Assembly: GCA_017537925.1 (NCBI GenBank)
Contig: JAFYJW010000067.1
Span: forward strand, 1-51,199
Direction: 5' to 3'
DNA length: 51,199 nt
Origin: Synergistes sp.
GTDB taxonomy: Bacteria > Synergistota > Synergistia > Synergistales > Synergistaceae
In this document: piece by piece, positions 33,011-51,096 of the stretch
How the letters are laid out: every line of letters starts with the position of its first letter
Position numbering within the stretch: the first letter of the stretch is position 1
Translations under genes and position numbers: made by a program
The notes under the pieces: model-generated
What the model was told of the DNA's origin: nothing
The model's input: only the letters and a program-made list of their open reading frames with translations
The model's database searches: none

Positions 33011-33039
33011 ATATCCGCACAGAAAACTGAGAATACACA

Positions 33040-33083
33040 GGCGCGGCGCGAAGACAGCATCTTTCGCGCCGCGCCGTTTTTTT
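33040..33083 (+). terminator. strong terminator after cyclophilin gene
   Basis: A perfect 13-bp GC-rich stem (33040-33052 with 33063-33075) with a ten-base loop is followed by seven T. Confidence 0.93.
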
Positions 33084-33237
33084 ATCAGCGTACTTTTAAA
33101 GGCCGGCGCAAAAGCGGAAAGGCCGCGGCTTTTCACTGCCGCAAAAGAATAGATAGCGTGCTCTTCTTTGTGTTAAAATGGCTTCAATGGGAGTATATGC
33201 CCGTTAATTTTTAATAAAACGGAGGAAACAGACTCAG

Positions 33238-34875
33238 ATGCTGAATATAGACCTTGCCGGCGGTGCCCAGCTTTGCTGCGAAAAGGGCACGACCGTACGC
33301 GAACTCCTCACAAACGCCGCATTCCCCGATCTGGGGAAGACCGTGGCCTGCCGTGTCAACCATATACAGCGCCCTCTTTCGTGGGAGCTCTCGATAGATT
33401 CCCTTGTAGAGCCTGTGACCACAGACAGCATCGAAGGCATAGAAGTATATACGTGCACAGTGGCGTTTATGCTGACAGCAGCCGCTACGCGCATCAAAAA
33501 CATCCGGCTCCACCTGACCCAGTCGATGTCCTATTCATACTACTACGAATCGCCCGAGCGGGAACTGACCCCCGAAGACTGCAGTGATATCGAAGCGGAG
33601 ATGCGCCGCATGGTCAGGGACAATGAGCCTATAACGCGGGAAACGATGCCGGCCGACGTAGCGCGCGAGATAATGCGGAAACAGAACTATGCCGACAAGG
33701 AGCGGCTGCTGTTCTATACGGGCACAGATCCGGTCATTCTCTACAAATGCAGCGGGGTCTACGACTTTTTCGGCGGCGCCCTCGCTGACAGCGCCGGCAT
33801 AACGCCGACCTTCGAGCTGCGCAGCTACAAGGGCGGCATATTCATATCAGGCCCCACGCTTTCCGATCCGTCGCATACGATGGCGTTCATAGAATCGCCG
33901 AAACTCTTCGACCTTATCGACAGGCATACGTACTGGCTGCAGAAGCTGCAGATCAGCACTGCGGCCGAGATACACGCTATCGTCACGGCAGGGCGTTCAA
34001 ACGAAATGATAATGGGCTGCGAGGCGGAGCACACGAAGGTGCTGGCAAATATCGCGGCCAAAATAAAGGAACGGGGCAACGTCGGGCTGATATGCCTTGC
34101 AGGGCCTTCAAGCTCCGGGAAAACGACCTCCTCACGCCGCCTGAGCGTGCAGCTGCTGACCTACGGGATAACCGCGGCGACGCTTGAGCTTGACAATTAC
34201 TTCGTAAACCGCGACAAGACCCCCGTGGGGCGGGACGGGAAATATGATTTTGAGGCTCTCGAAGCGCTTGATCTGGACCTGATAAACGAAAACATATCGG
34301 ATCTGCTTGCAGGCAAAGAAGCCGAGATTCCCAGATTTGACTTCGTGGCAGGGAAAAGGACAAAGGGCAAAACGATGAAGCTCGACCCCGGGCAGGTGCT
34401 CGTGATCGAAGGCATACACGGCCTTAACGACAGACTGACCGAAAGCGTCCCCGCGGAAAGAAAATTCAGGGTATTCATATCCCCGCTGACTGGAACGAAC
34501 ATAGATTTCCACAACCGCATAGGAACGACGGACACGAGGCTGCTGCGCCGCATGGTCCGCGACGCCAGAACGAGGGGGCATTCCGCCGAGGCGACCCTTA
34601 AGATGTGGCCCTCGGTCGTAAGAGGGGCCCATCGCTTCATATTCCCCTATACCGCCAATGCCGACGCGCTTTTCAACACGTCGCTGCCGTATGAGATATG
34701 CGTGCTCAAGGGGTATGTGATGCCGCTTCTGATGACGGTCGGAGAAGACTCTCCGGTATACGGCGAGGCGCTGCGTCTCCGCTCGATGCTGGAGTACCTC
34801 CCGGTGGTTCCTTCCGACGATGTGCCCAATCTTTCTCTCATCAGGGAGTTTATAGGCGGAAGCTGCTTCGAATAG
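33238..34875 (+). CDS. TGS domain plus uridine kinase-like nucleoside kinase
   Basis: The 545 residues combine an N-terminal TGS-like domain (1 to about 65), a region resembling the second additional domain of threonyl-tRNA synthetase (about 70-270), and a uridine/phosphoribulokinase-type P-loop kinase (about 280-490) with GPSSSGKT at 289-296 and VIEGIHGLND. Similar proteins are annotated as uridine kinase or nucleoside kinase in many Firmicutes and Synergistota; the true substrate is not proven. The TGS part suggests RNA or nucleotide sensing. GGAGGAAA (33221-33228) lies nine bases before the ATG. It stands alone after the terminator at 33083. Confidence 0.87.
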   Translation: MLNIDLAGGAQLCCEKGTTVRELLTNAAFPDLGKTVACRVNHIQRPLSWELSIDSLVEPVTTDSIEGIEVYTCTVAFMLTAAATRIKNIRLHLTQSMSYSYYYESPERELTPEDCSDIEAEMRRMVRDNEPITRETMPADVAREIMRKQNYADKERLLFYTGTDPVILYKCSGVYDFFGGALADSAGITPTFELRSYKGGIFISGPTLSDPSHTMAFIESPKLFDLIDRHTYWLQKLQISTAAEIHAIVTAGRSNEMIMGCEAEHTKVLANIAAKIKERGNVGLICLAGPSSSGKTTSSRRLSVQLLTYGITAATLELDNYFVNRDKTPVGRDGKYDFEALEALDLDLINENISDLLAGKEAEIPRFDFVAGKRTKGKTMKLDPGQVLVIEGIHGLNDRLTESVPAERKFRVFISPLTGTNIDFHNRIGTTDTRLLRRMVRDARTRGHSAEATLKMWPSVVRGAHRFIFPYTANADALFNTSLPYEICVLKGYVMPLLMTVGEDSPVYGEALRLRSMLEYLPVVPSDDVPNLSLIREFIGGSCFE

Positions 34876-34936
34876 GCGGCAGTCGCTGGCATACGCCCGG
34901 TTTCTGTTCCGCCGGCATATATAAAAAGGGACCCTT

Positions 34937-37900
34937 ATGCTGATTCTGCACGCCGTGTGCGGGAAAGAGAAATTATATCTATGGGGAGAGCATTCCTTCG
35001 AAGAGATTCCGCCGCAGAGCGGAGAAGGGATGCTTCCGCTTCCGTGGGGCGCGGACAGAAACGAGCTCACGTCGGCTCTTAAGGAGTTGGGCGTCAGACG
35101 TCCGCGCAGAAGCGATGACGCTGACGCTGCAGGCGTAAAACTCATCCTGCCGTGCAGATGCGGCATGCCTTTGCCCTCCACGCCTATGCTTGGCGAACTT
35201 CCCGCGTCAGAGGGAAGCTTTTCGCAGGCGCTCTTCTCCGCGGACGCCGTTCCGCTTGCTTTGCGCGAGTTCCTGCAGCTGCAGCGCCTTGCCGCAGAAA
35301 GCGGAGAACGTCTGCCGGCGCCGGGAATCCTCTTTTCGGATGACATAAGATTCATCTGTACGGCGGCCGAATATGCGGCATGCCTTGTGCGCCGCGGGAG
35401 CTTTATTCCCGACGTCGAAAAGCAGGAGCGCGGTTTCGTGCCGAGGTGGAAGCCCCTGATTTCCGCCAGGGACCAAGAGGAGTTCAATTCCTTTGTCGAA
35501 GCTCTGCCTGCGGTGCTTTGCGCGGCGTCGGCGGATGAGCCTCCCGTGCCTGCGCCTAAGAGGGAAACGGCCGAAGCGCTGCTTTCATCCCTTACGGATA
35601 TGATCATACGCGACTCTCAGGCGCAGAGCGGAGAAAAGGGCCGGCTCGTAGACCGGCGCAACATCCATGAGATATGGATACGCTCGCTGCTGTGGCGGGA
35701 AGCCGCACCGGAAAAATGGGAAGAGGAAATGGGCGCTCTTTATCAGCAGGTAAAGGCATGGCGCGATTCCTTCGGAGCCGACGGCGCGCAGCCGTGGCGT
35801 TTTGTTTTCCGCGTTGAGGAACCGCCGGAAGAAGAGGGCGAATGGACGCTTTCATGGTATCTCCAGTCTGCCGCCGATCTTTCGCTCGTCATCCCGGCAG
35901 AGCATGTATGGAGCCCTACAGAGGCCGAGCGCAGGCTCTTCGGACACGCAAAGACAAATCCGCGTCTTTATATGCTGAGGATGCTCGGACGGCTTGCCGC
36001 GGAAGTGCCTGCCATTGAGCCGGGACTGCATACCCCCTCTCCGTGCGAATGCAGGATCACGCTTGACGAGCTGTCGGATCTTGTGCTGAACAAGCTGCCG
36101 CGCGTGATGGATATGGGCGTACAGGTACAGTTCCCGCGAAGCTGGGGAGAGAGGCCGGAAACGCCGAAGCTGTCGGTGCGCGCCGAAGTGCGGGAAAGCA
36201 ACGCCTTTGCGGGATCGCTGAAGCCGCGCATGACGGATATGCTGAAAGTCGACTGGAAAGCGGCTTTAGGCGGCGATCTCCTCACCGATGACGAATTCGA
36301 GATGCTTGCCGGGCTGAAAAGTCCGCTTGTGAACATACGCGGCAGGTGGGTCCTTATATTCAGGGACGAGATCGATAAGATCGCCGCAGCGCTCAAAAAG
36401 CTGCCCGACAGGATAAGCCGCAGAGAGGCGCTTGTTTCCTCTCTGCGTCAGGAATATATGGACGCCCCGCTCTCGGGAATCACAGGCTCGCGCTGGCTTG
36501 ACGGCGTAAAGGAAATACTGTCTTCGCCGCAGCTTGAGGAAGCTGCCGAGCCGCCCGGCTTTGACGGGAAGCTGCGCCCGTACCAGGCAAAGGGGCTGTT
36601 CTGGCTCAGACGCCTGACAGATCTGGGGCTCGGAGCATGTCTTGCCGACGACATGGGGCTCGGCAAGACGGTACAGACTCTTGCGCTGATAGAAGGCATC
36701 AGGGAAAGCGGTGAAGAACGGCCGGTGCTCCTTATATGCCCGACCTCCGTTATGGAGAACTGGCGGCATGAAGCGGAAAGATTTGTCCCCGGGCTTAAAA
36801 CTCTCGTCCATCACGGACACGGCAGGAAGAAAAACAATGAATTCTCCGACGAAAAGCTTGCAGGGACGCTCGTTATATCCTCATACGCGCTGCTTTGCCG
36901 CGACAGCGCGCTTTTTTCGTCGGTAAAATGGGCCGGGACCGTGCTCGATGAAGCGCAGAACATAAAGAACCCGGACACAAGACAGGCCAGGGCCGCCCGG
37001 CTGATACCCGCGGACTGGCATATAGCGCTCACCGGTACGCCTGTCGAAAATCACGCAGGCGACATGTGGTCGATAATGGAATTCCTGATGCCGGGGCTGA
37101 TGCCGAACCGTGCCGAGTTTACGCGCGAGATACTGCGCCCGGTGCAGGCCGGGGACAGAAAAGCGGCCGACAAACTGCGCCGCATGACCGCGCCGTTCAT
37201 CCTGCGCCGCCTTAAGACAGACAGGAATATAATAAGCGACCTGCCGGAAAAGATAGAGAGCCGCGAATTCTGTCCGCTTACGCGCGAACAGGCGACGCTG
37301 TACAGAGCCGTCGCGTCATCTTTTGAGAAGAATCTGCCGGGATCAGAAGGCATAAAGCGCAGGGGCGTGATACTGGCCGCGATAACAATGCTGAAGCAGA
37401 TATGCGACCACCCTCTGCTCTATCTTAAAGACCGCTCGGAGTTGGGCGCCCGCTCCGGAAAAATGGCGCGCATCGCTGAACTTGCAGAGGAAATGACGGC
37501 GGCCGAAGACCGCGTGCTGATATTCACACAGTATGCCGAGATGGGGGCTCTGCTTAAAAGATTCATACAGGAGAACTTCGGACGCGAAGCGCTCTTTCTG
37601 CACGGCGGAGTGCCCGGCGAAAAGCGCGCGGAAATGGTGCGCAGATTTCAGGAGGAAGAAAACGGCCCTCCATTCTTTATCCTGTCGCTCAGGGCGGGAG
37701 GGACCGGACTTAATCTGACGCGCGCAAACCACGTGGTGATGTTTGACCGCTGGTGGAACCCTGCCGTCGAACAGCAGGCGGTGGACCGCGCATACCGCAT
37801 AGGCCAGGAGCGCAGCGTCCATGTGCACTACTTCTGCTGCCGCGGAACGCTCGAAGAGAAGATAGAAAAGCTTATAAACGAAAAGAAGGAGCTTGCCGAG

Positions 37901-37999
37901 ATGCTGGTGGGCGGCGGGGAGGCTTCCCTCTCCGAGCTGAGCGACAGCGACCTTTACGATCTCTTCATGCTTGAAAAAGAGGCTCAGGAGACACTGTGA
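34937..37999 (+). CDS. SNF2-family DNA-dependent ATPase/helicase
   Basis: At 1020 residues this has the bacterial SNF2 layout. The first 530 residues include an SNF2-associated (DUF3670-like) region. The motor starts at LRPYQAKGLFWL (about 550), with Walker A DDMGLGKT (Lys577), DEAQ (671-674), and in the second lobe GGTGLNLTRANHVVMFDRWWNP followed by the arginine-finger motif QAVDRAYRIGQ. Such motors move along double-stranded DNA and remodel protein-DNA complexes. Its stop overlaps the start of a SWIM zinc-finger gene, matching the ywqA-ywqB pair of Bacillus, and suggests a two-protein DNA repair or transcription-recycling unit. The ATG at 34937 starts LILHAVCGKEKLYLWGEH. Confidence 0.95.
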   Translation: MLILHAVCGKEKLYLWGEHSFEEIPPQSGEGMLPLPWGADRNELTSALKELGVRRPRRSDDADAAGVKLILPCRCGMPLPSTPMLGELPASEGSFSQALFSADAVPLALREFLQLQRLAAESGERLPAPGILFSDDIRFICTAAEYAACLVRRGSFIPDVEKQERGFVPRWKPLISARDQEEFNSFVEALPAVLCAASADEPPVPAPKRETAEALLSSLTDMIIRDSQAQSGEKGRLVDRRNIHEIWIRSLLWREAAPEKWEEEMGALYQQVKAWRDSFGADGAQPWRFVFRVEEPPEEEGEWTLSWYLQSAADLSLVIPAEHVWSPTEAERRLFGHAKTNPRLYMLRMLGRLAAEVPAIEPGLHTPSPCECRITLDELSDLVLNKLPRVMDMGVQVQFPRSWGERPETPKLSVRAEVRESNAFAGSLKPRMTDMLKVDWKAALGGDLLTDDEFEMLAGLKSPLVNIRGRWVLIFRDEIDKIAAALKKLPDRISRREALVSSLRQEYMDAPLSGITGSRWLDGVKEILSSPQLEEAAEPPGFDGKLRPYQAKGLFWLRRLTDLGLGACLADDMGLGKTVQTLALIEGIRESGEERPVLLICPTSVMENWRHEAERFVPGLKTLVHHGHGRKKNNEFSDEKLAGTLVISSYALLCRDSALFSSVKWAGTVLDEAQNIKNPDTRQARAARLIPADWHIALTGTPVENHAGDMWSIMEFLMPGLMPNRAEFTREILRPVQAGDRKAADKLRRMTAPFILRRLKTDRNIISDLPEKIESREFCPLTREQATLYRAVASSFEKNLPGSEGIKRRGVILAAITMLKQICDHPLLYLKDRSELGARSGKMARIAELAEEMTAAEDRVLIFTQYAEMGALLKRFIQENFGREALFLHGGVPGEKRAEMVRRFQEEENGPPFFILSLRAGGTGLNLTRANHVVMFDRWWNPAVEQQAVDRAYRIGQERSVHVHYFCCRGTLEEKIEKLINEKKELAEMLVGGGEASLSELSDSDLYDLFMLEKEAQETL

Positions 38000-38952
38000 G
38001 AAAGACAACAGAAAATTACAGGCGTTACGGCAGAAGCAAACCAATCGCGGCAAACGCAGGCATAAAGGCGCGCACTGCGCGCGGCCGCGAATTTGCCGTA
38101 AACTGGTGGTCCGCCCGCTGGATGAATATCATGGAAGAAGCGATAGACGCGGGGCGCATCGCGCGCGGCAAAAACTACGCGCGCAGGGGGCAGGTCATCG
38201 GCATAAACATAGAGCCCGGCCTTGTGACTGCAATCGTGCAGGGAACGCGCAAAGCCCCGTATCAGCTGCGCCTCGGCTTTGAGACGGCCGGCGCGGAAGC
38301 CCGCGAGCTGATACTCTTCCGCTTCAGGGAGGATGCAGCTCTTGCCTCGGAGCTGCTTGCCGGAGGATTGCCGGAAAAAACGGAAGAGATATTCGCTGAA
38401 GCAGGCACGCCGCTTTTCCCGGATCGTAATGCTCTGCGCCGCTTCAGATGCTCATGCCCAGACGAAGCATTTCCGTGCAAGCACGTGACGGCCGTTCTCT
38501 TCCTGCTGTGCGAGGAGATAAGCTGCGATCCCTTTCTGCTGCTGCGTCTGCGCGGAATAGAAAAAGAATGGCTTGCGGAAATGCTGACGCTGGAGAGCAT
38601 TTCCGACTTTGACGACGCGGATATTGCCGAGCCGGAGGCAGAAAACGGCGTGCTTTGCGGAGGAGCGGAAAGAACGGAAGACGCGGAAGACGCAGAAGAG
38701 GGAGCGGAAGACCTGCCCTGTCCGGGGGAAGACTGGTTCCGCGCAGGCGGTTTTTCTCCAAATCAGACGGAATCACCTGCCGGAAAGCGCGCCGCCGCGC
38801 TTGAAGTGATGACGGATTTTCCCTTCTGGAAAGGGGAGCATCCTTTCCGCCAGACACTTATCCCTATATACGAACAGGCAGCAGCATATGCCGCTGAGAT
38901 ACTTACCGGGGAAAAGAAAAGACCGGCAGGCAGGCCGCGCAAAATACTCTGA
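37996..38952 (+). CDS. SWIM zinc-finger protein paired with the SNF2 helicase
   Basis: A 318-residue protein with a SWIM zinc finger (CSC from 152, then CKH at about 160-162), a CxCxnCxH fold that binds DNA or proteins. The N-terminal region contains the family segment WWSARWMNIME and the basic RIARGKNYARRGQV, and residues 205-250 are strongly acidic. The GTG start overlaps the helicase stop (GTGA), so translation is coupled. The C terminus ends with basic KRPAGRPRKI, an AT-hook-like tail that may add DNA binding. Confidence 0.92.
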   Translation: MRKTTENYRRYGRSKPIAANAGIKARTARGREFAVNWWSARWMNIMEEAIDAGRIARGKNYARRGQVIGINIEPGLVTAIVQGTRKAPYQLRLGFETAGAEARELILFRFREDAALASELLAGGLPEKTEEIFAEAGTPLFPDRNALRRFRCSCPDEAFPCKHVTAVLFLLCEEISCDPFLLLRLRGIEKEWLAEMLTLESISDFDDADIAEPEAENGVLCGGAERTEDAEDAEEGAEDLPCPGEDWFRAGGFSPNQTESPAGKRAAALEVMTDFPFWKGEHPFRQTLIPIYEQAAAYAAEILTGEKKRPAGRPRKIL

Positions 38953-39323
38953 CGTCCTGAAAACCGGGCGGCGTAATGCAAAAACCCGCGCGGATGAATG
39001 CGCTGAAACATTTCGTCTAAAGGCCCCTCCCGACTGAGCCGGTGATAGATAATGATTTGCGTTACAGGTCCGGCAGTTCGGAGGTTATCTTCTGCCGGGC
39101 AATTCAGATGCTGAAGCGTGATGAAGATGATCGGAAGCGTTTACCCATCTCCTTTCCTGATGGGGATATCCGTATCCCTAGCATGGGAAAAGACCCTGAA
39201 GAGTGCAAAACGCAGAATTGACCGCATCTGCCGGTAATTTTGCGATTTTAGCGGCAGATAATTAAGTAAAAGTATTTATATTGTTTATTTTAGCCTTATT
39301 TTAGCGGGAAAAAACGAACGTTA
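38953..39323. other. intergenic stretch with several hairpins, no gene
   Basis: No supported ORF lies between the SWIM gene and the TRAP promoter. Several inverted repeats follow each other: CCGGCAG/CTGCCGG (39070-39098), CCCATC/GATGGG (39144-39164), GGATA-TCCG-TATCC near 39164-39177, and ATCTGCCG/CGGCAGAT (39226-39259). It does not match a riboswitch I know. Confidence 0.4.
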
Positions 39324-39353
39324 TTGACATAATATAACACTTTATGGTACGCT
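39324..39353 (+). promoter_or_regulatory. promoter of the TAXI TRAP transporter
   Basis: A consensus TTGACA (39324-39329) is followed after 18 bases by TACGCT (39348-39353), which is preceded by TGG, an extended -10-like element. It lies in an AT-rich stretch about 70 bases before the binding-protein gene. Confidence 0.5.
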
Positions 39354-39424
39354 CTAATGCCCGTTTCTTATAAGTTCCATCTCACCGGCTTCGGCCGGAA
39401 ATCAGAAAAAGGTGTGGTGTTCAG

Positions 39425-40429
39425 ATGAAAAAACTCGCAATGCTGATACTTCTTATCGCGATAGCCGCTGTTGCGGCTTCCCCTGCCGCAGCGGCTCCCG
39501 CTCCGCAGAAAGACTGGCCGGCTCAGCTAAAGTTTATGGCAGGCCCTCCGGGCGGAAACTGGTTTGCGCTTGGCAGCGCTCTGGCTGATATGTGGTCCAA
39601 GAACACGATATCAGTTACGAGCAGCACCGGCGGCGGTGTTTCCAACATCATCAACGCCAACGGCGGCAAGGGCGACTTCGGCTTCTCTGTCACCTCGCTG
39701 CTGGGAGCGGCCATAAAGGGAGAACAGGACTTTATGGGGCGTCCGACAAAGAACGCGGCGATTCTTGCCAACCTTTATACACAGTTCACCTATTTTATTA
39801 TGCGCAAAGACTTCGCTGAAAAGCATAAGATAAACACCGTAGGCGATATCTTCAAGAATAAGATCCCCGTCAAGATGGCCACGCTGAAGCCCGGCACATC
39901 TTCGGAGTTCGTCGTTAAGTCGCTCTTTGTAAAAGGCTACGGCGTTACCTATAACGACATCAAGAAGATGGGCGGTTCGATGGAATTCGCTTCTTACGAA
40001 GGCGGCGCCGACCTCCTTGCTGACGGACACATCGACCTCTTCATATTCTCGGTCGGCAGGGTAGCCTCGATAGTCATGAACATCGAAAGCAAAGCCGACA
40101 TCGTATGCCTCCCGGTCGACGACAACGCGCTTAAGGCGCTTTCCGACGCCTACGGCACAGTCACCTTCACGATCGAGCCCGGCATCTACAAGAGCGTCAA
40201 GAAGCCCGTCAAGACCGTTGGCGACTATACCTGCATAGTAGTGCGCAATGACATACCCGATACTCTCGCTTACGAACTCTGCAAATCCCTCTGGGAGAAC
40301 AAGGCCACGCTCGCGAAGGCTGTCAAGGACATAGACGAACTCACGCCGAAGATCGCAGTGCCGGCAGGAGTTCCTACGCAGCCCGGTGCGCTGAAGTACT
40401 GGAAAGAGCTGCAGGCTAAGACGAAATAA
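39425..40429 (+). CDS. TAXI-family TRAP transporter solute-binding protein
   Basis: A 334-residue exported binding protein with a clear signal peptide (hydrophobic residues about 4-20, cleavage likely near ASPAAAAPAP). The TAXI-type mature part starts with FMAGPPGGNWFALGSALADMW and has TSSTGGGVSNIINANGGKGDFGFSVTS. TAXI TRAP systems carry organic acids such as 2-oxoglutarate or glutamate; the ligand here is unknown. The start is the obvious signal-peptide methionine. The permease follows 166 bases later, past a terminator, as usual where more binding protein than permease is needed. Confidence 0.95.
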   Translation: MKKLAMLILLIAIAAVAASPAAAAPAPQKDWPAQLKFMAGPPGGNWFALGSALADMWSKNTISVTSSTGGGVSNIINANGGKGDFGFSVTSLLGAAIKGEQDFMGRPTKNAAILANLYTQFTYFIMRKDFAEKHKINTVGDIFKNKIPVKMATLKPGTSSEFVVKSLFVKGYGVTYNDIKKMGGSMEFASYEGGADLLADGHIDLFIFSVGRVASIVMNIESKADIVCLPVDDNALKALSDAYGTVTFTIEPGIYKSVKKPVKTVGDYTCIVVRNDIPDTLAYELCKSLWENKATLAKAVKDIDELTPKIAVPAGVPTQPGALKYWKELQAKTK

Positions 40430-40512
40430 CGCCTTTCGCGTAATTCTTTGATTTTAAGAAGCAGGGGAGTCCCCCTCCTCTGCTTCCCTTCCTTCCCTGA
40501 TTGATCGTCATG

Positions 40513-40544
40513 CGGCGGTTCTCCGCCGTCTTTTCGGTTTTTTT
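40513..40544 (+). terminator. intercistronic terminator between TRAP binding protein and permease
   Basis: CGGCGG-TTCT-CCGCCG (40513-40528) is followed by TCTTTTCGG and seven T. A second hairpin (12-bp stem, 40458-40469 with 40475-40486) without a T run lies upstream and may protect the binding-protein mRNA end. Confidence 0.7.
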
Positions 40545-40595
40545 GAATTCTGACACTGGAGCGTCATTCACGTTTTATGCCAGGAGTGTGTTTAA

Positions 40596-42473
40596 ATGCG
40601 AAAATTAAGCGGTTTGACTCAAAAATTTATATATGCATATTTTATATTGATCGGCCTCTTCCATCTCTATACCTCCATATTCGGAGCGTATGAATCATAC
40701 CTGCAGAAAAATATCCATCTGGGGCTGGTGCTCCCGACGGCATTCTTCTTATTCCCGATGTTCAAGAAAGCGCCAATGGACCGCATCCCCATCTATGACT
40801 GGGTACTCGGGGCCATATCGGCGATTCCGTCTATCTATGCGGTCGTCAACTATGACAGCATCGTGATGCGCATCCAGCAGGTCGATCCCCTGACCGCCGC
40901 CCAGTTCTGGTGCGGCATACTGCTGTTTGTGCTGCTGCTCGAAGGTACGCGCCGCGTCGTCGGACTGCCGCTGACTATCATAGCCTTCCTATTCGCCGCA
41001 TATATGTACTTTGGTCAGTCTCTGCCCGGCATAATGAAGGGGCTTTCTTTTTCGATGTCCGAAGTCGTCGAGCAGATATACCTTACAGACGAAGGAATAT
41101 TCTCGATGCCGCTGGGCGTCTCCGCGACGCTCGTTGCCGCGTTCCTTATCTTCGGCGGCTTCCTTGAAAAATGCGGTACGGGTCCGTACTTTATGGAAGT
41201 TGCTCAGGCATTTACCGGCACAGCGCCGGGCGGCCCCGCAAATATCGCCGTCATGAGTTCCTGCCTCTTCGGCTCGATATCGGGCTCTGCTGTCGCCAAT
41301 GTTTACGGCACCGGTACATTCACGATACCTCTTATGAAAAAGATAGGCTATCCTCCGCACTTTGCCGGCGCGGTCGAGGCCGTTTCCAGCTCGGGCGGTC
41401 AGATAATGCCGCCTGTCATGGGAGCCGGCGCTTTCCTTATGGCGTCCTTCCTCGGCGTACCCTTCACTAAAATAATCGTCGCTGCGATAACTCCGGCTAT
41501 TATTTACTATGCGGCAGTCTTCCTCATGATTCGCCTCGAAGCTATGAAGCGCGGGCTTAAGGGCCTGGCGCCGGAAGACCTTCCCGACAAAAAACAGGTC
41601 GTGAAAAAAGCTTATCTCTTCCTGCCGATAATAGCGCTCGTTTATTTCCTTTTTGTCGGGATGACGCCGATGCGCGCCGCAGCGATAGGGGTACTCGTTT
41701 CATGGCTCGTTTCGCTTCCCCAGCCTGACAGACGCATGGGGCCGCGTGCGATTCTGGATGCTATCTACGGCGGCGTTAAAAACATAACGCTTGTCTGCGT
41801 GGCCTGTGCTACGGCGGGCATAGTGCTCGCCTCCGTTTCGCTGACCGGAGTCGGAGTCAAGCTCGTCGGACTCGTGCTTGCATTTACGAGCGGACTGCCG
41901 TTGCTTGCGCTCTTCCTCGTTATGATTGTATCGCTCATCCTCGGAATGGGGCTGCCGACGACCGGCGCCTATATCCTTGCCTCGGCGCTCGGCGTTCCTA
42001 TCCTCACAAAGCTTGGCTTCCCCGCAATATCGGCGCATATGTTCGTTTTCTACTACGCTATAATATCGAACATCACGCCGCCGGTCGCACTCGCCGCATA
42101 TGCTGCTGCGTCGATTGCCGGTTCCGACCCGAACAGAACGGGCTTTGAAGCCTGCCGTCTCGGTTTCCTCGCGTTCGTAACGCCATATGCCTTCTGCTAT
42201 GACCCCGGCATACTGCTGCAGGGGACTCTGCCTGAAAACCTCTTTGGCATACTTGCCTGCTGCGTTGCCTGCTTCGGCTTCGGTTTCTCGATGATGGGCT
42301 ATCTGAACCGTCCGCTGAGGGCTTGGGAAAGGTTGGCCTTCGTCATCTTTGCGGTCATGGGTCTCTGCCCCAACCGTCTGATAACGGTGATCGGCGCTGT
42401 CGGTGTTATAGCGGCGTGGATACTCTTCGCAAAGACGGGAAAGAAAAACGCGCAGACTCCTGCAGCGGCTTAG
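40596..42473 (+). CDS. TRAP transporter permease, fused DctQ-DctM type
   Basis: A 625-residue membrane protein that joins the small (four-helix) and large (about twelve-helix) TRAP subunits in one chain, the form used with TAXI binding proteins. Conserved stretches include GSISGSAVANVYGTGTFTIPLMKKIGYPP, which leads into AGAVEAVSSSGGQIMPPVMGAGAFLM, and LGMGLPTTGAYILASAL. It drives uptake with a Na+ or proton gradient. CAGGAGTG precedes the ATG by about eight bases. A piece of this gene (41332-41417) is repeated as a scar at 45100-45183. Confidence 0.96.
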   Translation: MRKLSGLTQKFIYAYFILIGLFHLYTSIFGAYESYLQKNIHLGLVLPTAFFLFPMFKKAPMDRIPIYDWVLGAISAIPSIYAVVNYDSIVMRIQQVDPLTAAQFWCGILLFVLLLEGTRRVVGLPLTIIAFLFAAYMYFGQSLPGIMKGLSFSMSEVVEQIYLTDEGIFSMPLGVSATLVAAFLIFGGFLEKCGTGPYFMEVAQAFTGTAPGGPANIAVMSSCLFGSISGSAVANVYGTGTFTIPLMKKIGYPPHFAGAVEAVSSSGGQIMPPVMGAGAFLMASFLGVPFTKIIVAAITPAIIYYAAVFLMIRLEAMKRGLKGLAPEDLPDKKQVVKKAYLFLPIIALVYFLFVGMTPMRAAAIGVLVSWLVSLPQPDRRMGPRAILDAIYGGVKNITLVCVACATAGIVLASVSLTGVGVKLVGLVLAFTSGLPLLALFLVMIVSLILGMGLPTTGAYILASALGVPILTKLGFPAISAHMFVFYYAIISNITPPVALAAYAAASIAGSDPNRTGFEACRLGFLAFVTPYAFCYDPGILLQGTLPENLFGILACCVACFGFGFSMMGYLNRPLRAWERLAFVIFAVMGLCPNRLITVIGAVGVIAAWILFAKTGKKNAQTPAAA

Positions 42474-42502
42474 CCGTAAAGGTCAAAAACATTGATTATA
42501 AA

Positions 42503-42537
42503 GAAAGAGGGCCTTCGGGTCCTCTTTCTTGTGTTTT
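42503..42537. terminator. bidirectional terminator after the TRAP permease gene
   Basis: An 11-bp stem (42503-42513 with 42518-42528, one G-U pair) with a TTCG loop is followed by TTGTGTTTT on the plus strand and by TTTATAA on the minus strand. It lies between the convergent permease and peptidase genes. Confidence 0.75.
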
Positions 42538-42573
42538 ATATTCCGATGCTCTTTTGCAAAACATACTTCAGCA

Positions 42574-45089
42574 GCAGATAATCATATGCCGCGGCCTCGT
42601 GCGCCGGGGCATATGTATCAAACGACCTCAGGCGAAGTGATACGCACGACCTTGCCGCAGAAAAGAGCGAAATGTGTATTGTATCAACACAGCTTTAGAT
42701 AATGACTGCGCATGCAGCTCAGGATCTTCCGCCTGAGCGCCGCTTTACTGCCAGCGCAAGCGGTACGAGCAGTATAAGCGCAAGCGGAGAGACTCCTGCG
42801 GAGCATCCGCCGCCCCCGCCGCCCTCTTCTTCGGGCGGATCGTACGGCTGCGTGGAATCGACGGCGTCAGCGATGGTGATATCCGCCGTCGGGAAATAGC
42901 TGCTAATATCGCTTACGGAAAAAACAAATCTGCCATCCTGGTATTCGGCGGGCAGCGCGTCATAGCCGCCGTCTGAAGGGATAATAACGTATGGCTTGCC
43001 GGAAAATTTGAAAAGCGGCAAAACAGGCACCGAGAAAGACGCATATCCGCCCTCTTCCGCCTCTTCTACCGTCATCTCAAAAACGCCCTTGAGCGTGACA
43101 TTTTTATCCGGGGCGATCCCTTTAACGAGCTCTTTGTTAAGATATCTGATTATGTCTTTCTCTCTTTCTCTCTGTCTTTTCTCAGTAACGGCCGAGGTAT
43201 GGACGGTAAGTCCGGTGTGCCCGGTGACAGTAGCTTCCCCGGGAACGACTTCTGACACATCTTCCGCCTTATGCTGCCGCGTGCCGAAAGCCTTGAGGCA
43301 GATGCTTGCCGAATCCACGTCCTCTTCGTCCTTTATGTCATGGAAACTGGCGCCATCCTCCGATATCCATCCCTCGCCCTTTTTTGCCTCCGCTTTTTCG
43401 GAGTATCCTGATAATCTGTACTGGACCGGGATGGTGTAGGTGAAACCGTCGGTTTGCGCGGCAGCCTTGACGGTCACTGAAAACTTTGTTCCTGCCGTCA
43501 CGTCGGCAGGAGTTGCTAAAATTACCGTGTTATAGCCGGGAGCGAGTCCCTCAACAGCAAGATATGAAGCGGCAGTGCCGCTCAAAGGGGTGTCTCCGCA
43601 GTTTTTATATATGTATATATCATATTTGATTTCCGGCGAGGGAACAAAGAAAGCTACCGACGATATCCTGTCGTTTCCCTCTGCCGTGAATATATTCGCG
43701 AAATATTGGACCGATCCCTCCCCCGTTTTGTACCAGCCGATGCAGCCCAGAGGGTCATACTGATATACTCTCTCGCCGGAAAGGGCCGCTGTGGTGGGGT
43801 ACACGATACCGTCCGACAGAGTGCCTTCTTCGTAAGAGACATAGTAATAGCCGTTATCTCCCCAGGCGCTTCCCCAGCTGTTGCGTACTATCCAGGCGCC
43901 GTTTTCCTTCGGCCGGTTGTCTTCTGCGAATTTTTCCTTCGGATAGGCGTCGTCCCATCCGACCAGCGCAACGGAGTGATTTGGTCTGAGCAGAGCGCCG
44001 TCCGGCTCGTCCGTTCCGTACGTCCGTCCGGTGTAATATGAAAAGCCGTCTTCGGAGAACACGTTGCGGTTGATATCTTCGCGTGACTCTTCATTGTTTC
44101 GGTACTGATAGATGCCTGCGGAAGCTGCTCCGTAATCCATGATGGCCGATTTGATCATATCGCGCCGCGCCGCCGAGAGCGGCACGGTGCTTGCGCCGTC
44201 GTTTCCAAGGTACAGCGCGTTTTCGAGCTTATACTTTCTCGGCGTCAGCGCTGGAGTGTAAACATCGCTTACCGAACGCGGCGCGGGAGCATCTGTCTCC
44301 GGCAGAGAGCCTGTGCCGCGCGCCAGAAGAGCGACGGCTCTCCAGTCGCTTCCTCCCACGTAGTAATAAGGTCTCGTTGTCGGGTTGGTGAAAGAGACGA
44401 AATCATCGTCATTGTAGGCATAATATGTGATATACCATGTCGACAGCTCTATGTCGGACGGCTGGGCCAGCCCTGCTTTTATCAGACTGGATTCTGTGGC
44501 TGCCATCGCGCTGTGGACCCAGCAGTTTGAAAACGGCACCTGATTTCTTGCGGCCGGCATCGAGGGGCGGAGATCATAGCGGGCTGGGAGCGTATTTCCG
44601 GCTGAGCGCAGATCAGTGCCTTCCGCGGAAGAGCGCGAAATACTGTATACTTTGCCGTCAAGGTGCGACCAGTCAAGCGGCGAAGGAATATAGCCGAAAT
44701 TCCGCCCGCCTGCGTCACCTGCGGAGCTCCCGGCCATTCTGTTTCCCGAAGGTGCATCGGAAGAAACTTTTGTTATATAGTCGTAAAAAGCGGGATTTAA
44801 GGGCGCAAGCTCCGCCTCTGCCGCCCCGGCAGCAAAAAGCGCGGCGGCGCACAGAAGCCACAGCATGAATCGGACAAATATCTTCTTCATAAAAAATCTC
44901 CTTTACCGTTAAAGGTGCGGGGAGAATCCATACACCGGAGTTCGGATTGCAGGATAACAAAAAACATTCTTAAAGCTGTTTTTATGATATCATACCGCAG
45001 CGGCAAATGGATATGAGAAATATACTGCGGTGAAGCCGTTTCCCCTGCGGTCCGGATAATGAAAACGAAAAAACGCGCCGCAGAGCGTA
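42574..45089. repeat. tandem repeat copy A (peptidase unit)
   Basis: This 2.5-kb stretch, holding a C1 peptidase gene plus both flanks, is repeated with moderate divergence at 45184-47608. The flanks match too: GCAGATAATCATATGCCGCG at the left end and GCAGAGCGTA at the right end. Confidence 0.85.
42719..44890 (-). CDS. secreted C1-family cysteine peptidase with Synergist-CTERM tail (copy A)
   Basis: A 723-residue papain-fold (C1) peptidase. A signal peptide (hydrophobic 7-24) is followed by a short propeptide-like segment and the catalytic domain with Gln117, Cys123 (NCW), His305 (NHSVALVGWDD) and Asn337 (RNSWGSAWGD). A lectin-like beta domain follows (about 380-490), then a region of about 140 residues shared with other Synergist-CTERM proteins. 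The C terminus is a Gly-rich GGGGGG, a Cys, a hydrophobic helix and KRRSGGRS, the sorting signal. It should be exported and anchored or processed at the envelope, digesting proteins outside the cell. AAAGGAG lies six to seven bases before the ATG. Copy B is 2.5 kb upstream on the same strand. Confidence 0.93.
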   Translation of the reverse strand: MKKIFVRFMLWLLCAAALFAAGAAEAELAPLNPAFYDYITKVSSDAPSGNRMAGSSAGDAGGRNFGYIPSPLDWSHLDGKVYSISRSSAEGTDLRSAGNTLPARYDLRPSMPAARNQVPFSNCWVHSAMAATESSLIKAGLAQPSDIELSTWYITYYAYNDDDFVSFTNPTTRPYYYVGGSDWRAVALLARGTGSLPETDAPAPRSVSDVYTPALTPRKYKLENALYLGNDGASTVPLSAARRDMIKSAIMDYGAASAGIYQYRNNEESREDINRNVFSEDGFSYYTGRTYGTDEPDGALLRPNHSVALVGWDDAYPKEKFAEDNRPKENGAWIVRNSWGSAWGDNGYYYVSYEEGTLSDGIVYPTTAALSGERVYQYDPLGCIGWYKTGEGSVQYFANIFTAEGNDRISSVAFFVPSPEIKYDIYIYKNCGDTPLSGTAASYLAVEGLAPGYNTVILATPADVTAGTKFSVTVKAAAQTDGFTYTIPVQYRLSGYSEKAEAKKGEGWISEDGASFHDIKDEEDVDSASICLKAFGTRQHKAEDVSEVVPGEATVTGHTGLTVHTSAVTEKRQREREKDIIRYLNKELVKGIAPDKNVTLKGVFEMTVEEAEEGGYASFSVPVLPLFKFSGKPYVIIPSDGGYDALPAEYQDGRFVFSVSDISSYFPTADITIADAVDSTQPYDPPEEEGGGGGGCSAGVSPLALILLVPLALAVKRRSGGRS

Positions 45090-45099
45090 TACCGGCCGA

Positions 45100-45183
45100 T
45101 TATGAAAAAGATCGGCTATCCTCCGCACTTTGGGCGCGGTCGAGGCCGTTTCCGGCTCCGGCGGTCAGATAATGCCGCCTGTC
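45100..45183 (+). pseudogene. scar fragment of the TRAP permease gene
   Basis: These 84 bases match 41332-41417 of the permease gene (TTATGAAAAAGAT through GCCTGTC) with a few substitutions and a two-base deletion, so the frame is lost. The fragment sits between the two peptidase copies. It then jumps straight to the sequence that in copy A begins at 42574, so about 1.16 kb (41418-42573) is missing from the duplicate. The 44891-45264 gap otherwise holds only the peptidase leaders and trailers. Confidence 0.85.
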
Positions 45184-47608
45184 GCAGATAATCATATGCC
45201 GCGGCCTCATGCACGGTGGCTTACTGTATCAACACAGCTTTAGATAATGACTGCGGCATACAGCTCAGGATCTTCCGCCTGATCGCCGCTTTCCTGTCAG
45301 CACAAGCGGTACGAGCAGTATAAGCGCAAGCGGAGAAACACAGGCTGAGCATCCGCTGCCTCCTTTGGGCGGGTCGTACGGCTGAACGGAATCCACGGCG
45401 TCAGCGATGGCAATCTCCGCCGTCGGGAAATAGCTGCTTATGTCGCTTACGGAAAAAACAAATTTACCTTTATGATATTCCGCAGGAAGCGCTTCATAGC
45501 CGCTGTCTGAAGGGAAGATCAAATACGGCTTGCCGGAAAATTTGAAAAGCGGCGAAACAGGCACCGAGAAATACGCGGATCCGCCCTCTTCCGCCTCTTC
45601 TATCGTCATCTCAAAAACGCCCTTGAGCGTGACATTTTTATCCGGGGCGATTCCGTTCACAAGTTCTTTGTTGTGATGTCTGATTATCTCATTCATTCTT
45701 TCACTCTGTTTTTCCATGGTAACGGCCGAGGTATTGACGGTAAGCCCGGTGTGTCCTGTGACAGTCGCTTCCCCCGGGACGACTGCGGATGCATCTTCCG
45801 CATTATGCTGCCGCGTGCCGAAGGCCTTGAGGCAGATGCTTGCCGAATCCATGTTACCTCCGTCATTCATGTCATATATGTCATAGAAATTGGCGCCGTC
45901 CGCCGAAATCCATCCCTCGCCCTTTTTTGCCTCCGCTTTTTCTGAGTATCCTGACAACCTGTACTCGACCGGAATTGTACAGGTGAAACCGTCGGTTTGC
46001 GCGTCAGCCTTGACGATCACTGAAAATTTTGTTCCTGTCGTCACGTCGGCAGGAGTTGCTAAAATAACCGTGTTATAGCCTGGAGCGAGTCCCTCAATAG
46101 AGGAACAGGAGGCAAATGTGCCGCTCAAAGGGGTGTCTCCGCAGTTTTTATATATGTATATCTCATATTTGACGTCCGGCGAGGGAACATAGAAGGCCAC
46201 CGACGATATCCTGTCGTTTCCCTCTGCCGTGAATATATTCGCGAAATATGAGACCGTTCCCTGCCCGGCTCTGTACCAGTTGACGCATCCCAGAGGGTCA
46301 TACTGATATACTCTCTCGCCGGAAAGGGCCGTTGTGGTGGCGTACACGACACCGTCCGACAGAGTGCCTTCTTCGTAGGAGATATAGTAATAGCCGTTAT
46401 CTCCCCAGTCGCTTCCCCAGCTGTTGCGTACTATCCAGGCGCCGTTTTCCTTCGGCCGGTTGTCTCCTGCGAATTTTTCCTTCGGGTAGGCGTCGTCCCA
46501 TCCGACCAGCGTGACGGCGTGATTTTGTCCGATAAGCCCGTCCCGTCCGGTGTAATATGAAAGACCGTCTTCGGAAAATACGTCGCGGCTGATATCTTCG
46601 CGTGACTCTTCATTGTTTCGGTACTGATGGATGCCTGCGTAAACAGCTCCGTAATCCATGATGGCCGATTTGATCATATCGCGCCGCGCCGCCGAGAGCG
46701 GCACGTTCCATGCGCCTTCGTTTCCAAGGTACAGCGCGCTTTCAAGCTTATACTTTCTCGGCGTCAGCGCGGGAGTGTACACATCGCTTTCCGAACGCGG
46801 CGCGGGAGCATCTGTCTCCGGCAGAGAGCCTGTGCCGCGCGCCAGAAGAGCGACGGCTTTCCACGCATTTCCTCCCGCGTCGTAATAAGGTTCCGCAGTC
46901 GGGTTGGTGAAAGAGACGAAATCATCGTCATTGCAGGCGTAATAGGTGATATACCATGTCGACAGCTCTATGTCGGACGGCTGGGCCAGTCCGTATCGTA
47001 TCAGACTGGATTCCGTGGCTGCCATCGCGCTGTAGGCCCAGCAGTTTTCAAATGATAACTGATTTCTCACGGCCGGCATCAACGGGCGGAGATCATAGCT
47101 GGCGGGAAGCGCGCTGCCGGCTGAGCGCAGGTCTCCGCCTTCCGCGGAAGAGCGCGAAATGCTGTATACTTTGCCGTCAAGGTGCGACCAGTCAAGCGGC
47201 GAAGGAATATAGCCGAAATTCTGCCCGCCTGCATCACCTGCTGAGATCCCGGCCATTCTGTTTCCCGAAGGTGAATCGGAAGAAACTTTTGTTATATAGT
47301 CGTCAAAAGCGGGATTTAAGGGCGCAAGCTCCGCTTCCGCAGCCCCGGCCGCAAAAAGCGCGGCTGCGCAAAGAAGCCACAGCATGAATCGGACACGTAT
47401 CTTCTTCATAAAAATCTCCTTTCCCGTTAAAGGCGCGGGGAGCATCCATACACCGGCGTTCGGAATGTAAGATCAGAAAAAACGTTCCTAAAACTGTTTT
47501 TATTTTATCATGCCGCAGCGGCAAATGGATATGTGAAATATACGGCGGTGAAGCCGTTTCCCCCGCGGGCCGGATAACGAAGACGAAAAAAAGCGCCCGC
47601 AGAGCGTA
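45184..47608. repeat. tandem repeat copy B (peptidase unit)
   Basis: The second copy of the unit at 42574-45089. It lacks about 65 bases of the region downstream of the peptidase gene, which in copy A lies near 42610-42675. Confidence 0.85.
45265..47409 (-). CDS. secreted C1-family cysteine peptidase with Synergist-CTERM tail (copy B)
   Basis: A 714-residue paralogue of the peptidase at 42719-44890 with the same order: signal peptide, catalytic domain, lectin-like domain, shared region and Synergist-CTERM tail (GCSACVSPLALILLVPLVL, then basic). Cys123, His297 and Asn329 are kept, so it should be active. Differences cluster near the active site: NQLSFENCWAYSA replaces NQVPFSNCWVHSA, and eight residues are missing just before the catalytic His. 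The start is ATG 47409 with GGAAAGGAG upstream; an in-frame ATG at 47445 adds 12 residues ahead of the signal peptide. The pair suggests a recent duplication followed by specialisation. Confidence 0.93.
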   Translation of the reverse strand: MKKIRVRFMLWLLCAAALFAAGAAEAELAPLNPAFDDYITKVSSDSPSGNRMAGISAGDAGGQNFGYIPSPLDWSHLDGKVYSISRSSAEGGDLRSAGSALPASYDLRPLMPAVRNQLSFENCWAYSAMAATESSLIRYGLAQPSDIELSTWYITYYACNDDDFVSFTNPTAEPYYDAGGNAWKAVALLARGTGSLPETDAPAPRSESDVYTPALTPRKYKLESALYLGNEGAWNVPLSAARRDMIKSAIMDYGAVYAGIHQYRNNEESREDISRDVFSEDGLSYYTGRDGLIGQNHAVTLVGWDDAYPKEKFAGDNRPKENGAWIVRNSWGSDWGDNGYYYISYEEGTLSDGVVYATTTALSGERVYQYDPLGCVNWYRAGQGTVSYFANIFTAEGNDRISSVAFYVPSPDVKYEIYIYKNCGDTPLSGTFASCSSIEGLAPGYNTVILATPADVTTGTKFSVIVKADAQTDGFTCTIPVEYRLSGYSEKAEAKKGEGWISADGANFYDIYDMNDGGNMDSASICLKAFGTRQHNAEDASAVVPGEATVTGHTGLTVNTSAVTMEKQSERMNEIIRHHNKELVNGIAPDKNVTLKGVFEMTIEEAEEGGSAYFSVPVSPLFKFSGKPYLIFPSDSGYEALPAEYHKGKFVFSVSDISSYFPTAEIAIADAVDSVQPYDPPKGGSGCSACVSPLALILLVPLVLTGKRRSGGRS

Positions 47609-47628
47609 AGCCGCTGAGACGGGCGCTT
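47585..47628 (-). terminator. terminator of the liv operon
   Basis: AAGCGCCCG (47591-47599) pairs with CGGGCGCTT (47620-47628), and on the minus strand a run of seven T follows. It separates livF from the peptidase gene on the same strand. Confidence 0.85.
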
Positions 47629-47655
47629 ACTGTATTTTTTACCGTGCCGGTCTTT

Positions 47656-48360
47656 CTACCCGCCCAGGTAGGCGCTTATCACGCGGCTGTCGTTGAGCAG
47701 ATCCTTTCCTTCTCCGTGCAGCGTGATCTGCCCGACCTCAAGCACATAAGCGTAATCCGCGATCTTAAGCGCGGCAAAGGCGTTCTGCTCAACAAGCAGG
47801 ACTGTCTTTCCCTCTTTGTTTATCTGGCGGATGATATCGAATACCTCTTCGACGAGTATCGGAGCGAGCCCCATCGAAGGCTCGTCGAACATTATCAGTT
47901 CCGGGCTGCTCATCAGGGCGCGTCCCACGGCCAGCATCTGCTGCTCGCCGCCGGACAGCGTGCCGCCCTTCTGCCAGGAGCGTTCGCGCAGACGGGGGAA
48001 AAGATCGAATGCCTTTTCGACAGCGGCGTCTAACTCGGCTTTGCTTTTGCAGGAATAGCCGCCGAGACGCAGGTTCTCAAGCACCGTCAGGTGCGGGAAG
48101 ATCCTCCTCCCCTCGGGGCAGAGGGCTATGCCGCTTTCAAGCACGCGCTCCGGCTGCATGCCGAAGATGTTTTTTCCTTTCCATGTCACGGAGCCGCTTT
48201 TATTGCGCACAAGTCCGGCTATCGCGCGCAGCGCGCTGCTTTTTCCGGCGCCGTTCGCGCCTATCAGAGTGACTATCCTGCCTTCCGGCACTTCAAGAGA
48301 TATCCCGCGCAGTGCCTGTATGCCGCCGTAGTTGACGCAGAGATTTTCCACCTTAAGCAT
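47656..48360 (-). CDS. livF: branched-chain amino acid ABC transporter ATP-binding protein LivF
   Basis: A 234-residue ABC ATPase, the shorter of the two Liv ATPases. Walker A GANGAGKSS is at about 34-42, the signature TLSGGEQQ near 134-141 and the Walker B LIMFDEPSMGLAP near 154-166. With LivG it powers LivHM for uptake of branched-chain or other amino acids. It starts directly beside the livG stop (no gap) and ends at the operon terminator. Confidence 0.95.
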   Translation of the reverse strand: MLKVENLCVNYGGIQALRGISLEVPEGRIVTLIGANGAGKSSALRAIAGLVRNKSGSVTWKGKNIFGMQPERVLESGIALCPEGRRIFPHLTVLENLRLGGYSCKSKAELDAAVEKAFDLFPRLRERSWQKGGTLSGGEQQMLAVGRALMSSPELIMFDEPSMGLAPILVEEVFDIIRQINKEGKTVLLVEQNAFAALKIADYAYVLEVGQITLHGEGKDLLNDSRVISAYLGG

Positions 48361-49152
48361 CTATCTCGCCTCCGCCTTTCCTGCGGCCTCTTTGCCGAGG
48401 TATGCTTCGATGACTTTGGAGTTTGCACGGATATCCGCCGGGGTGCCTTCGGCTATCAGCTGACCGTAGTCCAGCACGCGGATCCATTCGGAAACTCCCA
48501 TTACGACCTTCATGTCGTGCTCTATCATAAGTATCGTGACCTTGAAGTTATCCCGAATATGCCTTATGAAATCCATAAGTTCCCGGCTTTCCTGCGGGTT
48601 CATGCCGGCGGCCGGTTCGTCAAGCAGCAGGAGCTCCGGCTCGGTCGCAAGGGCCCTTGCTATCTCAAGACGGCGCTGCGCGCCGTAAGGAAGCCCGGTC
48701 GCGATCTCCTGCGCCAGTTTGTCGAGACCGACCGCTTCAAGCAGCCCCATCGACTTCTCCCTGATCTGCCGCTCTTCCCGGCGGAAGAACGGAAGCTGCA
48801 GAGGCGCGCTCCACCACGGAGACTTCTGACGCACCCAGCATCCGGTCATTACGTTCTGCAGCACAGTGCCGCCGGTGAAGAGGCGTATGTTCTGGAAGGT
48901 GCGCGCGATGCCGGTCCTGCAAACGATGTGCGGCTCAAGAGACGTTATATCTTCACCCTTGAAGATCACGCGCCCGGACGTCGGTTTGTAAAAGCCCGTG
49001 ATTATGTTGAAACAGGTCGTTTTCCCGGCTCCGTTCGGGCCTATAAGGCTCGTTATCGAGCCGCGCTCCACTTCGATCGAAAAGCCGCTCACGGCGGTCA
49101 GCCCGCCGAATTTTATCATTACGTCTTCTGTCTTGAGTATGATATCAGCCAT
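48361..49152 (-). CDS. livG: branched-chain amino acid ABC transporter ATP-binding protein LivG
   Basis: A 263-residue ABC ATPase with Walker A GPNGAGKTT (about 37-45), the LivG-specific FQNIRLFTGGTVLQNVM segment and insertion (about 85-130), LPYGAQRRLEIARAL as signature and LLLLDEPAAGMNPQE as Walker B. The livM and livG genes overlap by eight bases, so translation is coupled. Confidence 0.96.
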   Translation of the reverse strand: MADIILKTEDVMIKFGGLTAVSGFSIEVERGSITSLIGPNGAGKTTCFNIITGFYKPTSGRVIFKGEDITSLEPHIVCRTGIARTFQNIRLFTGGTVLQNVMTGCWVRQKSPWWSAPLQLPFFRREERQIREKSMGLLEAVGLDKLAQEIATGLPYGAQRRLEIARALATEPELLLLDEPAAGMNPQESRELMDFIRHIRDNFKVTILMIEHDMKVVMGVSEWIRVLDYGQLIAEGTPADIRANSKVIEAYLGKEAAGKAEAR

Positions 49153-50203
49153 TTGCGCGCGCCTTCCTTCCCGTTATGCGCCTGGCGAAACGCGCAGCGC
49201 TTTCCCAGCTGAATTCGTAGCCGCCTATTATGCCCTCGCGTCGGTAAAGGATTATGAACAGAAGCAGCAGCGAGAATATCAGCATCCTCATGCCGGGCAT
49301 CCCCGCTATCTCCCACGAGCCTATCGTTATCGTTTCCTCAACGAAGCGCAGCCATTCAAGCAGCACCGTTATCACAACGGCGCCTACCAGCGAGCCCGTT
49401 ACGGAACCGAGTCCTCCGACGACGACGAACATCAGGATATTAAAGGTAAGCTGGAAGTTGAACATCTTGGGGTCTATAGTAGTGATAAGGCTGCCCATCA
49501 GAGAGCCGCCGATGCCGGCAAAGAAGGCGCCGATAACGAAGGATATCGTCTTTGTCCTGAAAGTGTTTATCCCCATCGCTTTTGCCGCGACCTCGTCGTC
49601 TCGCACGGCGCGCAGCGTATTGCCGAAGTTGCCCGAGAGCAGCTTTACTATCACATAGACGGTAAGTATGCACCAGAAATAGTTCCATCCGAGACCGGCA
49701 TAGGCCGGGATGCCTTTAAGTCCCAGCGCACCGTTCGTGATCGGCGTCATATTCGTAAAGAGCACGCGGATTATCTCGCCGAAGCCGAGCGTAGCTATAC
49801 CAAGGTAGTCGCCGCCGAGCCGCAGGCAGGGCAGTGCTATCAGAAGGCCTACCAGGGCTGCGGCAAGTCCGCCTGCCACGACAGCCGCAAAGAACGGCGC
49901 GTGCATCACGGAGAAGGGCCACATCATCGGCTCAAGTATATACATCATCTCTTTTTGAGCGGCCGGGAGAATCAGTATCGCGGTGACATATGCCCCTATC
50001 GCCATAAAACCGGCGTGAGCGAGAGAAAACATGCCCGTGAAGCCGTATATAAGGTTAAGGCTTATCGCAAGTATCGCATTGACGGCTATAAGGTTCAGCA
50101 CCTGCACCGAATATCCGTCAAGGTTGTTCTGCCCCCACCAGAGGAAGAGCGCAAGCAGAGCGAGGCAGCCGGAATTAAGCAGCAGTTTCGTGGTTTTTTT
50201 CAT
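49145..50203 (-). CDS. livM: branched-chain amino acid ABC transporter permease LivM
   Basis: A 352-residue permease with about ten hydrophobic helices. Family marks are NLIYGFTGMFSLAHAGFMAIGAY (about 50-72), LRLGGDYLGIATLGFGEIIRVL and the EAA-like GINTFRTKTISFVIGAFFAGIGGSLMG. It overlaps livH by one base on one side and livG by eight on the other. Confidence 0.95.
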   Translation of the reverse strand: MKKTTKLLLNSGCLALLALFLWWGQNNLDGYSVQVLNLIAVNAILAISLNLIYGFTGMFSLAHAGFMAIGAYVTAILILPAAQKEMMYILEPMMWPFSVMHAPFFAAVVAGGLAAALVGLLIALPCLRLGGDYLGIATLGFGEIIRVLFTNMTPITNGALGLKGIPAYAGLGWNYFWCILTVYVIVKLLSGNFGNTLRAVRDDEVAAKAMGINTFRTKTISFVIGAFFAGIGGSLMGSLITTIDPKMFNFQLTFNILMFVVVGGLGSVTGSLVGAVVITVLLEWLRFVEETITIGSWEIAGMPGMRMLIFSLLLLFIILYRREGIIGGYEFSWESAARFARRITGRKARANG

Positions 50204-51096
50204 TATATCTTATCCTCCAGCTTCTCGCCCATAAGTCCGGTCGGCCTGTAGAAGAGTATCAGTATAAGCAGAACGAACGCGAAAGCGTCGCGGTAGCCGG
50301 AAAGCGACGGGAAAAGAGCCACCAGCATTATCTCCATAAAGCCGAGCAGCAAGCCTCCTATCATCGCCCCCTGCACCGAGCCTATGCCTCCGAGCACCGC
50401 GGCTATGAAAGCCTTGAGCCCGGGGAATACACCCATGAAGGGATGTATCTGCGGATAACGGAGAGCCCACATGATGCCGGCCGCAGCCGCCATGGCCGAG
50501 CCAATTCCAAAGGTCAGCGCTATTATGCGGTCGACCTTTACCCCCATCAGCCTTGTCGTTTCAATATCACGCGATATAGCGCGCATCGCGATTCCCGGCT
50601 TTGTGCGGTAAAGCATCCAGATCAGCGCCGCGACAAGCAGGAACGATATGACGGGAACAAATATAGCAAGCGGAAGGATACGCGCGCCGCCGATCGAAAT
50701 TACCTTCACAAGGGGCTCGAAGCGCGGCATTGGCTTGGGAACACCGGTAAAGATAACGAGGCAGAGATTTTCGATAAAGAATGAAACTCCTATAGCGGAG
50801 ATAAGCGCCGATATGCGGGGGGCGCTGCGCAGAGGCTGGTACGCGATGCGGTCAATCATCATGCCGAAGAGCGCTGTCGCCGCTATTGAAAGTATGACGG
50901 CCGGTATCCACGGAAGATGCATGCCGGCTATCGCAATAAAGACGAAATATGTGCTTATCATAAAGATATCCCCGTGGGCGAAGTTTATCAGCCTGAGGAT
51001 ACCGTAGACCATCGTATAGCCGATGGCGATCAGCCCGTAAAGGCTGCCCAGCATAAGGGCGTTGAAGAAATGCTGGACTATCATATCAAATGTCAT
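50203..51096 (-). CDS. livH: branched-chain amino acid ABC transporter permease LivH
   Basis: A 297-residue permease with about eight hydrophobic helices, opening QHFFNALMLGSLYGLIAIGYTMVYG and then LRLINFAHGDIFM (about 34-46). The cytoplasmic loop GIAMRAISRDIETTRLMGVKVDR contacts the ATPases. GAGAGG lies about seven bases before the ATG. The 103 bases left to the window end hold only a leader or spacer; the binding-protein gene is expected just beyond. Confidence 0.95.
   Translation of the reverse strand: MTFDMIVQHFFNALMLGSLYGLIAIGYTMVYGILRLINFAHGDIFMISTYFVFIAIAGMHLPWIPAVILSIAATALFGMMIDRIAYQPLRSAPRISALISAIGVSFFIENLCLVIFTGVPKPMPRFEPLVKVISIGGARILPLAIFVPVISFLLVAALIWMLYRTKPGIAMRAISRDIETTRLMGVKVDRIIALTFGIGSAMAAAAGIMWALRYPQIHPFMGVFPGLKAFIAAVLGGIGSVQGAMIGGLLLGFMEIMLVALFPSLSGYRDAFAFVLLILILFYRPTGLMGEKLEDKI

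Follow-up and report, generated by a model that had tools for sequence, protein, structure and literature searches.

A tandem duplication of a papain-type peptidase gene with a permease gene fragment at its joint in a Synergistes genome

The locus and its two peptidase genes

We analyzed a window of 51,199 nucleotides, positions 1 to 51,199 of contig JAFYJW010000067.1 from Synergistes sp. (assembly GCA_017537925.1). Two peptidase genes on the minus strand lie in tandem between the genes of a TRAP transporter and a liv-type ABC operon (Table 1). Both are intact and encode C1 (papain-type) peptidases, with 89% DNA identity over 2424 aligned bases. The open frame of copy 2 begins at 47445, and the Met at 47409 corresponds to the start used in homologues.

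Table 1. Features of the peptidase locus, in window coordinates
Feature	Position	Strand	Evidence or remark
TAXI-type TRAP solute-binding protein gene	39425..40429	+	TIGR02122, PF16868
TRAP fused permease gene, source of the scar	40596..42473	+	TIGR02123 (E 4e-195), DctM PF06808
Permease segment copied as the scar	41332..41417	+	Repeat search, pairwise alignment, genome search
Terminator-like hairpin 3' of the permease	42501..42530	+ (folds on either strand)	Fold z -4.5 / -4.6
Peptidase downstream flank	42574..42718		Copied to 45184-45264 with a gap of ~65 bases
Peptidase copy 1	42719..44890	minus	Signal-peptide-like N-terminus, papain-type C1 domain, lectin-like domain, Synergist-CTERM tail
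Copy 1 upstream flank	44891..45094		Ends in truncated half of liv terminator hairpin
Joint bases without clear source (~5)	45095..45099		
Permease scar	45100..45183		84 of 86 bases, frame broken
Copy 2 downstream flank	45184..45264		
Peptidase copy 2	45265..47409	minus	Architecture as in copy 1, the Synergist-CTERM tail being putative
Rho-independent-type terminator after livF	47591..47628	minus	Fold -24.4 kcal/mol, z -3.64
liv-type ABC operon	47656..51096	minus	Adjoins the peptidase in sister species G002 too

In each copy, PF00112 (Peptidase_C1) followed by PF18560 (Lectin_like) scored above cut-off. The Synergist-CTERM tail (TIGR04564, cut-off 22.5 bits) scored 30.9 bits in copy 1 and 20.5 bits in copy 2; despite falling just under the cut-off, the C-terminus of copy 2 has a readable GCSA, hydrophobic stretch, and KRR. 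Active-site motifs were read from an alignment with homologues, using the residues of Cwp84 described in PMC4089489 (Cys116, His262, Asn287, and Gln110). Both copies contain RNQ...NCW, NHxV, and RNSWG; the motifs of the catalytic Cys, His, and Asn and of the oxyanion Gln are intact, and cysteine-protease activity is predicted for both proteins. CWAYSA in copy 2 and in the peptidase of the sister species G002 corresponds to CWVHSA in copy 1, and a loop of ~8 residues just ahead of the active-site His has been lost from copy 2. The peptidase is probably a secreted, surface-sorted papain-type enzyme: both copies would be exported and sorted via the Synergist-CTERM tail, with surface or environmental proteins as their substrates.

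The joint between the copies

A repeat search of the locus against itself showed the peptidase copies to be collinear direct repeats, at a spacing of 2518-2546 bases, that span the downstream flank, the gene, and the upstream region. With two intact genes on the same strand, repeats that include the flanks, and a novel joint, the tandem duplication proposed in the first-pass annotation is well founded. The 84-base permease scar that it placed between the copies was likewise recovered, 45100-45183 being a copy of 41332-41417. The match consists of two pieces, 41332-41364 with 45100-45132 (97%) and 41367-41417 with 45133-45183 (96%), and the scar differs from its permease source by three substitutions and one 2-base deletion, which reduces 86 bases to 84. 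When permease positions 41318-41431 were used as a query against the whole genome, the scar was found at E 8e-32, and the remaining matches were paralogous permeases only (72-76%); thus, the scar match is far beyond chance. The scar is non-coding and its frame is broken by the 2-base deletion, in agreement with the earlier view that the permease piece has decayed. Immediately after the scar, the flank at 45184-45223 matches 42574-42613 at 88%, and the order of permease piece, flank, and gene is the same at both places. A second gap between the copies, of ~65 bases (~42611-42675), lies downstream of the genes. The stretch at 45100-45264, between the two genes, showed no terminator-like site on the minus strand.

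At the right end, the homology of the two copies fades at ~45085-45099 and 47606-47613, and the breakpoint falls in the apical part of the liv terminator hairpin (47591-47628). The intact terminator folds (z -3.64), whereas the truncated half that was copied does not (z 0.10). At the left joint, 41417 is fused directly to 42574 with no microhomology. The 8-base word CAGATAAT occurs near both sides of this inner joint (at 41400 and 42575); slippage between the two words was considered and rejected, as both survive in the scar. Homology to the TRAP locus of G001, a relative of the same genus, stops at ~42542, ~31 bases from the end of the proposed deletion, and 42574 may therefore lie near an old locus boundary. 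The hairpin that follows the permease has no counterpart in the gap between the two peptidases, and transcription of copy 2 may therefore run on into copy 1.

Two routes to this joint were weighed. In the first, a 6.3-kb unit (41332 to ~47608) would have been duplicated, and 1156 bases (41418-42573) would then have been deleted from the copy. The shared order of permease piece, flank, and gene needs no extra assumptions under this route, and the further ~65-base gap in the same flank suggests that the spacer loses DNA. However, a separate deletion is needed whose right end lies close to the edge of the G001 TRAP homology, its junction lacks microhomology, and no intermediate is known; we regard this route as plausible, albeit just short of probable. 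In the second, a 2.5-kb unit (42574 to ~47610) would have been duplicated in one complex event, with the joint filled by template switching with 86 nearby permease bases. Both junctions would then arise at once from a short filler taken from close by, the break would fall inside a hairpin that is a plausible polymerase stall site, and the edge of the unit would lie near the TRAP homology edge. Here, too, the direct 41417|42574 fusion is a difficulty, and at the other joint there are 5 bases that have no clear source; microhomology could, however, be hidden by the ~10% divergence. In the papers that were found, such filler is described mostly from eukaryotes. We hold the complex event as a serious but tentative candidate. 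That it was a single replication event, with the polymerase halted at the hairpin of the liv terminator and resuming after it had copied 86 permease bases, to leave a long-preserved bacterial templated filler, seems to us doubtful.

The first-pass annotation took the scar to fix the mechanism, with a unit that starts inside the permease and a later loss of 41418-42573 from the copy. This was too strong, because duplication of 6.3 kb with deletion and duplication of 2.5 kb with filler give the same two junctions and leave the same sequence. Its tandem duplication, intact genes, decayed permease piece, and retention by selection (see below) hold, whereas the starting point of the unit and the later deletion should be read as one option. 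The permease fragment is about equally likely to be the remnant of a longer duplicated piece or a short templated insert; a scar from a neighboring gene does not, by itself, show whether a templated joint or a duplication with later deletion lies behind it.

Age of the pair and selection on both copies

Synonymous divergence (dS) between the copies is 0.217 (dN/dS 0.39), as compared to 0.62-0.64 between either copy and the G002 peptidase, and by this measure each copy has the other as its closest relative. Thus, the duplication is likely to be younger than the split from this sister species, unless gene conversion kept the copies alike. With changes polarised by the G002 peptidase, the nonsynonymous fraction is under the neutral expectation in the branches of copy 1 (38/73, p = 6e-6) and copy 2 (65/107, p = 3e-4). 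Because purifying selection is seen on both branches, the idea that the second copy was kept by selection is supported, as is retention of both. Nonsynonymous changes are more numerous in copy 2 (65 vs 38, p = 0.01), the protein sequence of which appears to be changing faster than that of copy 1.

These values also bear on whether the contig is correctly assembled. The genome is a draft of 77 contigs, and the G002 contig breaks at this same place; however, at 11% divergence the two copies should be told apart by reads, and each has an open frame that is under purifying selection. An assembly artefact is therefore highly improbable.

The scar carries three substitutions, where ~11 would be expected from the peptidase synonymous rate (P = 0.004) and ~6-7 from a noncoding yardstick (P = 0.1-0.2). 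At two of the three, the scar has the allele of the G001 permease, and these changes may thus have occurred in the permease and not in the scar. Within the gene, synonymous divergence between the copies drops to about half in the central part (43690-44290, p = 0.006), which hints at gene conversion. Windowed tests for conversion were weak (P 0.04-0.23), and strong gene conversion between the copies was set aside, these tests being borderline only. Both the low scar divergence relative to peptidase dS and the central part of the gene, where some conversion is possible, would fit an older pair whose spacer received the permease piece at a later time, through insertion or through gene conversion across the flank. 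Later arrival is made less likely by the fact that the low count reaches significance when judged by peptidase dS and not when judged by the noncoding flanks; the windowed tests do little for it, and the downstream flank beside the scar is ~9% diverged, like the rest. We consider such a history improbable.

In the order of events as read from this one draft genome, a peptidase gene located between the TRAP transporter locus and the liv ABC operon would have been duplicated in tandem, probably after the split from the nearest sequenced sister. The right-hand break would have fallen in the liv terminator hairpin, and the left-hand side would have involved the permease, leaving its 86-base fragment at the joint. 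Taken as a whole, tandem duplication with a hairpin break, a permease fragment at the joint, and retention of both copies is very probably the right explanation.

Related loci and comparison with known systems

In G001, genes matching 30000-38946 are followed within ~100 bases by livF, and neither TRAP genes nor a peptidase were found between them. The block of TRAP and peptidase genes at 38953-47640 is either an insertion here or a loss in G001. The TRAP genes of G001 are on a separate contig (C54), and the peptidase is on C21, ~10 kb from livF, beside a gene that we take from its sequence to be a putative sodium:alanine-type symporter; the same two neighbors, peptidase and putative symporter gene, occur in G016. 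In G002, one peptidase lies beside livF, and the contig breaks off within the last peptidase codons; no other contig sharing this end was found. The peptidase place beside livF is common to G002 and the present genome, and the TRAP neighbor is seen only here. The G002 assembly yielded no match to the TRAP genes (39373-42542), which in G001 are on a different contig.

Identity to G001 is 88% for the TRAP genes, 67-76% for genes at 30-39 kb, and 83-86% for the liv genes. The TRAP genes have a slightly lower synonymous divergence from G001 (0.51-0.57) than neighboring genes (0.61-0.85 for liv). Relocation or transfer of the TRAP genes is possible; the case for recent horizontal arrival is weakened by the identity of the liv genes and their only slightly higher synonymous divergence. 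The scar was not found in any of the relatives examined, and a scan of genome contigs returned the G002 contig and distant relatives only, with no second strain. Viral contigs searched with the scar sequence and the peptidase gave nothing. A hit in a phage collection covers 5% of the query, in two patches.

The closest solved structure to both copies is Cwp84, the S-layer-processing cysteine protease of Clostridioides difficile (PDB 4ci7, 4d59; E 2e-23 for copy 2 and 2e-19 for copy 1). Common to all three are a papain-type C1 domain followed by Lectin_like PF18560 and the Gln, Cys, His, and Asn motifs, whereas in the copies Pfam found no cell-wall-binding repeats and a Synergist-CTERM tail, putative in copy 2, takes their place. 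Cwp84 processes the S-layer; the likeness of the copies to it is one of domains and motifs, and we claim no S-layer role for them. Neighboring same-strand C1/lectin-like peptidase paralogues, in tandem as here, also occur in G028 (C60) and G038 (C78), of the same order, but these pairs are more diverged (67% and 51% protein identity, respectively).

The peptidase pair is a real and ordinary gene duplication with a well-preserved and unusually readable junction. The joints of old duplications are often lost; here the joint, the broken terminator half, and a fossil of the neighboring gene remain, and how a retained pair of paralogues arose can therefore be partly reconstructed. In bacterial tandem gene duplications, sequence that hitchhiked with the duplicated gene can later be lost. 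The pair described here resembles such duplications in its head-to-tail copies, its retained gene, and its remnant of a neighbor, and differs from them in that the loss step is one of two proposed routes.
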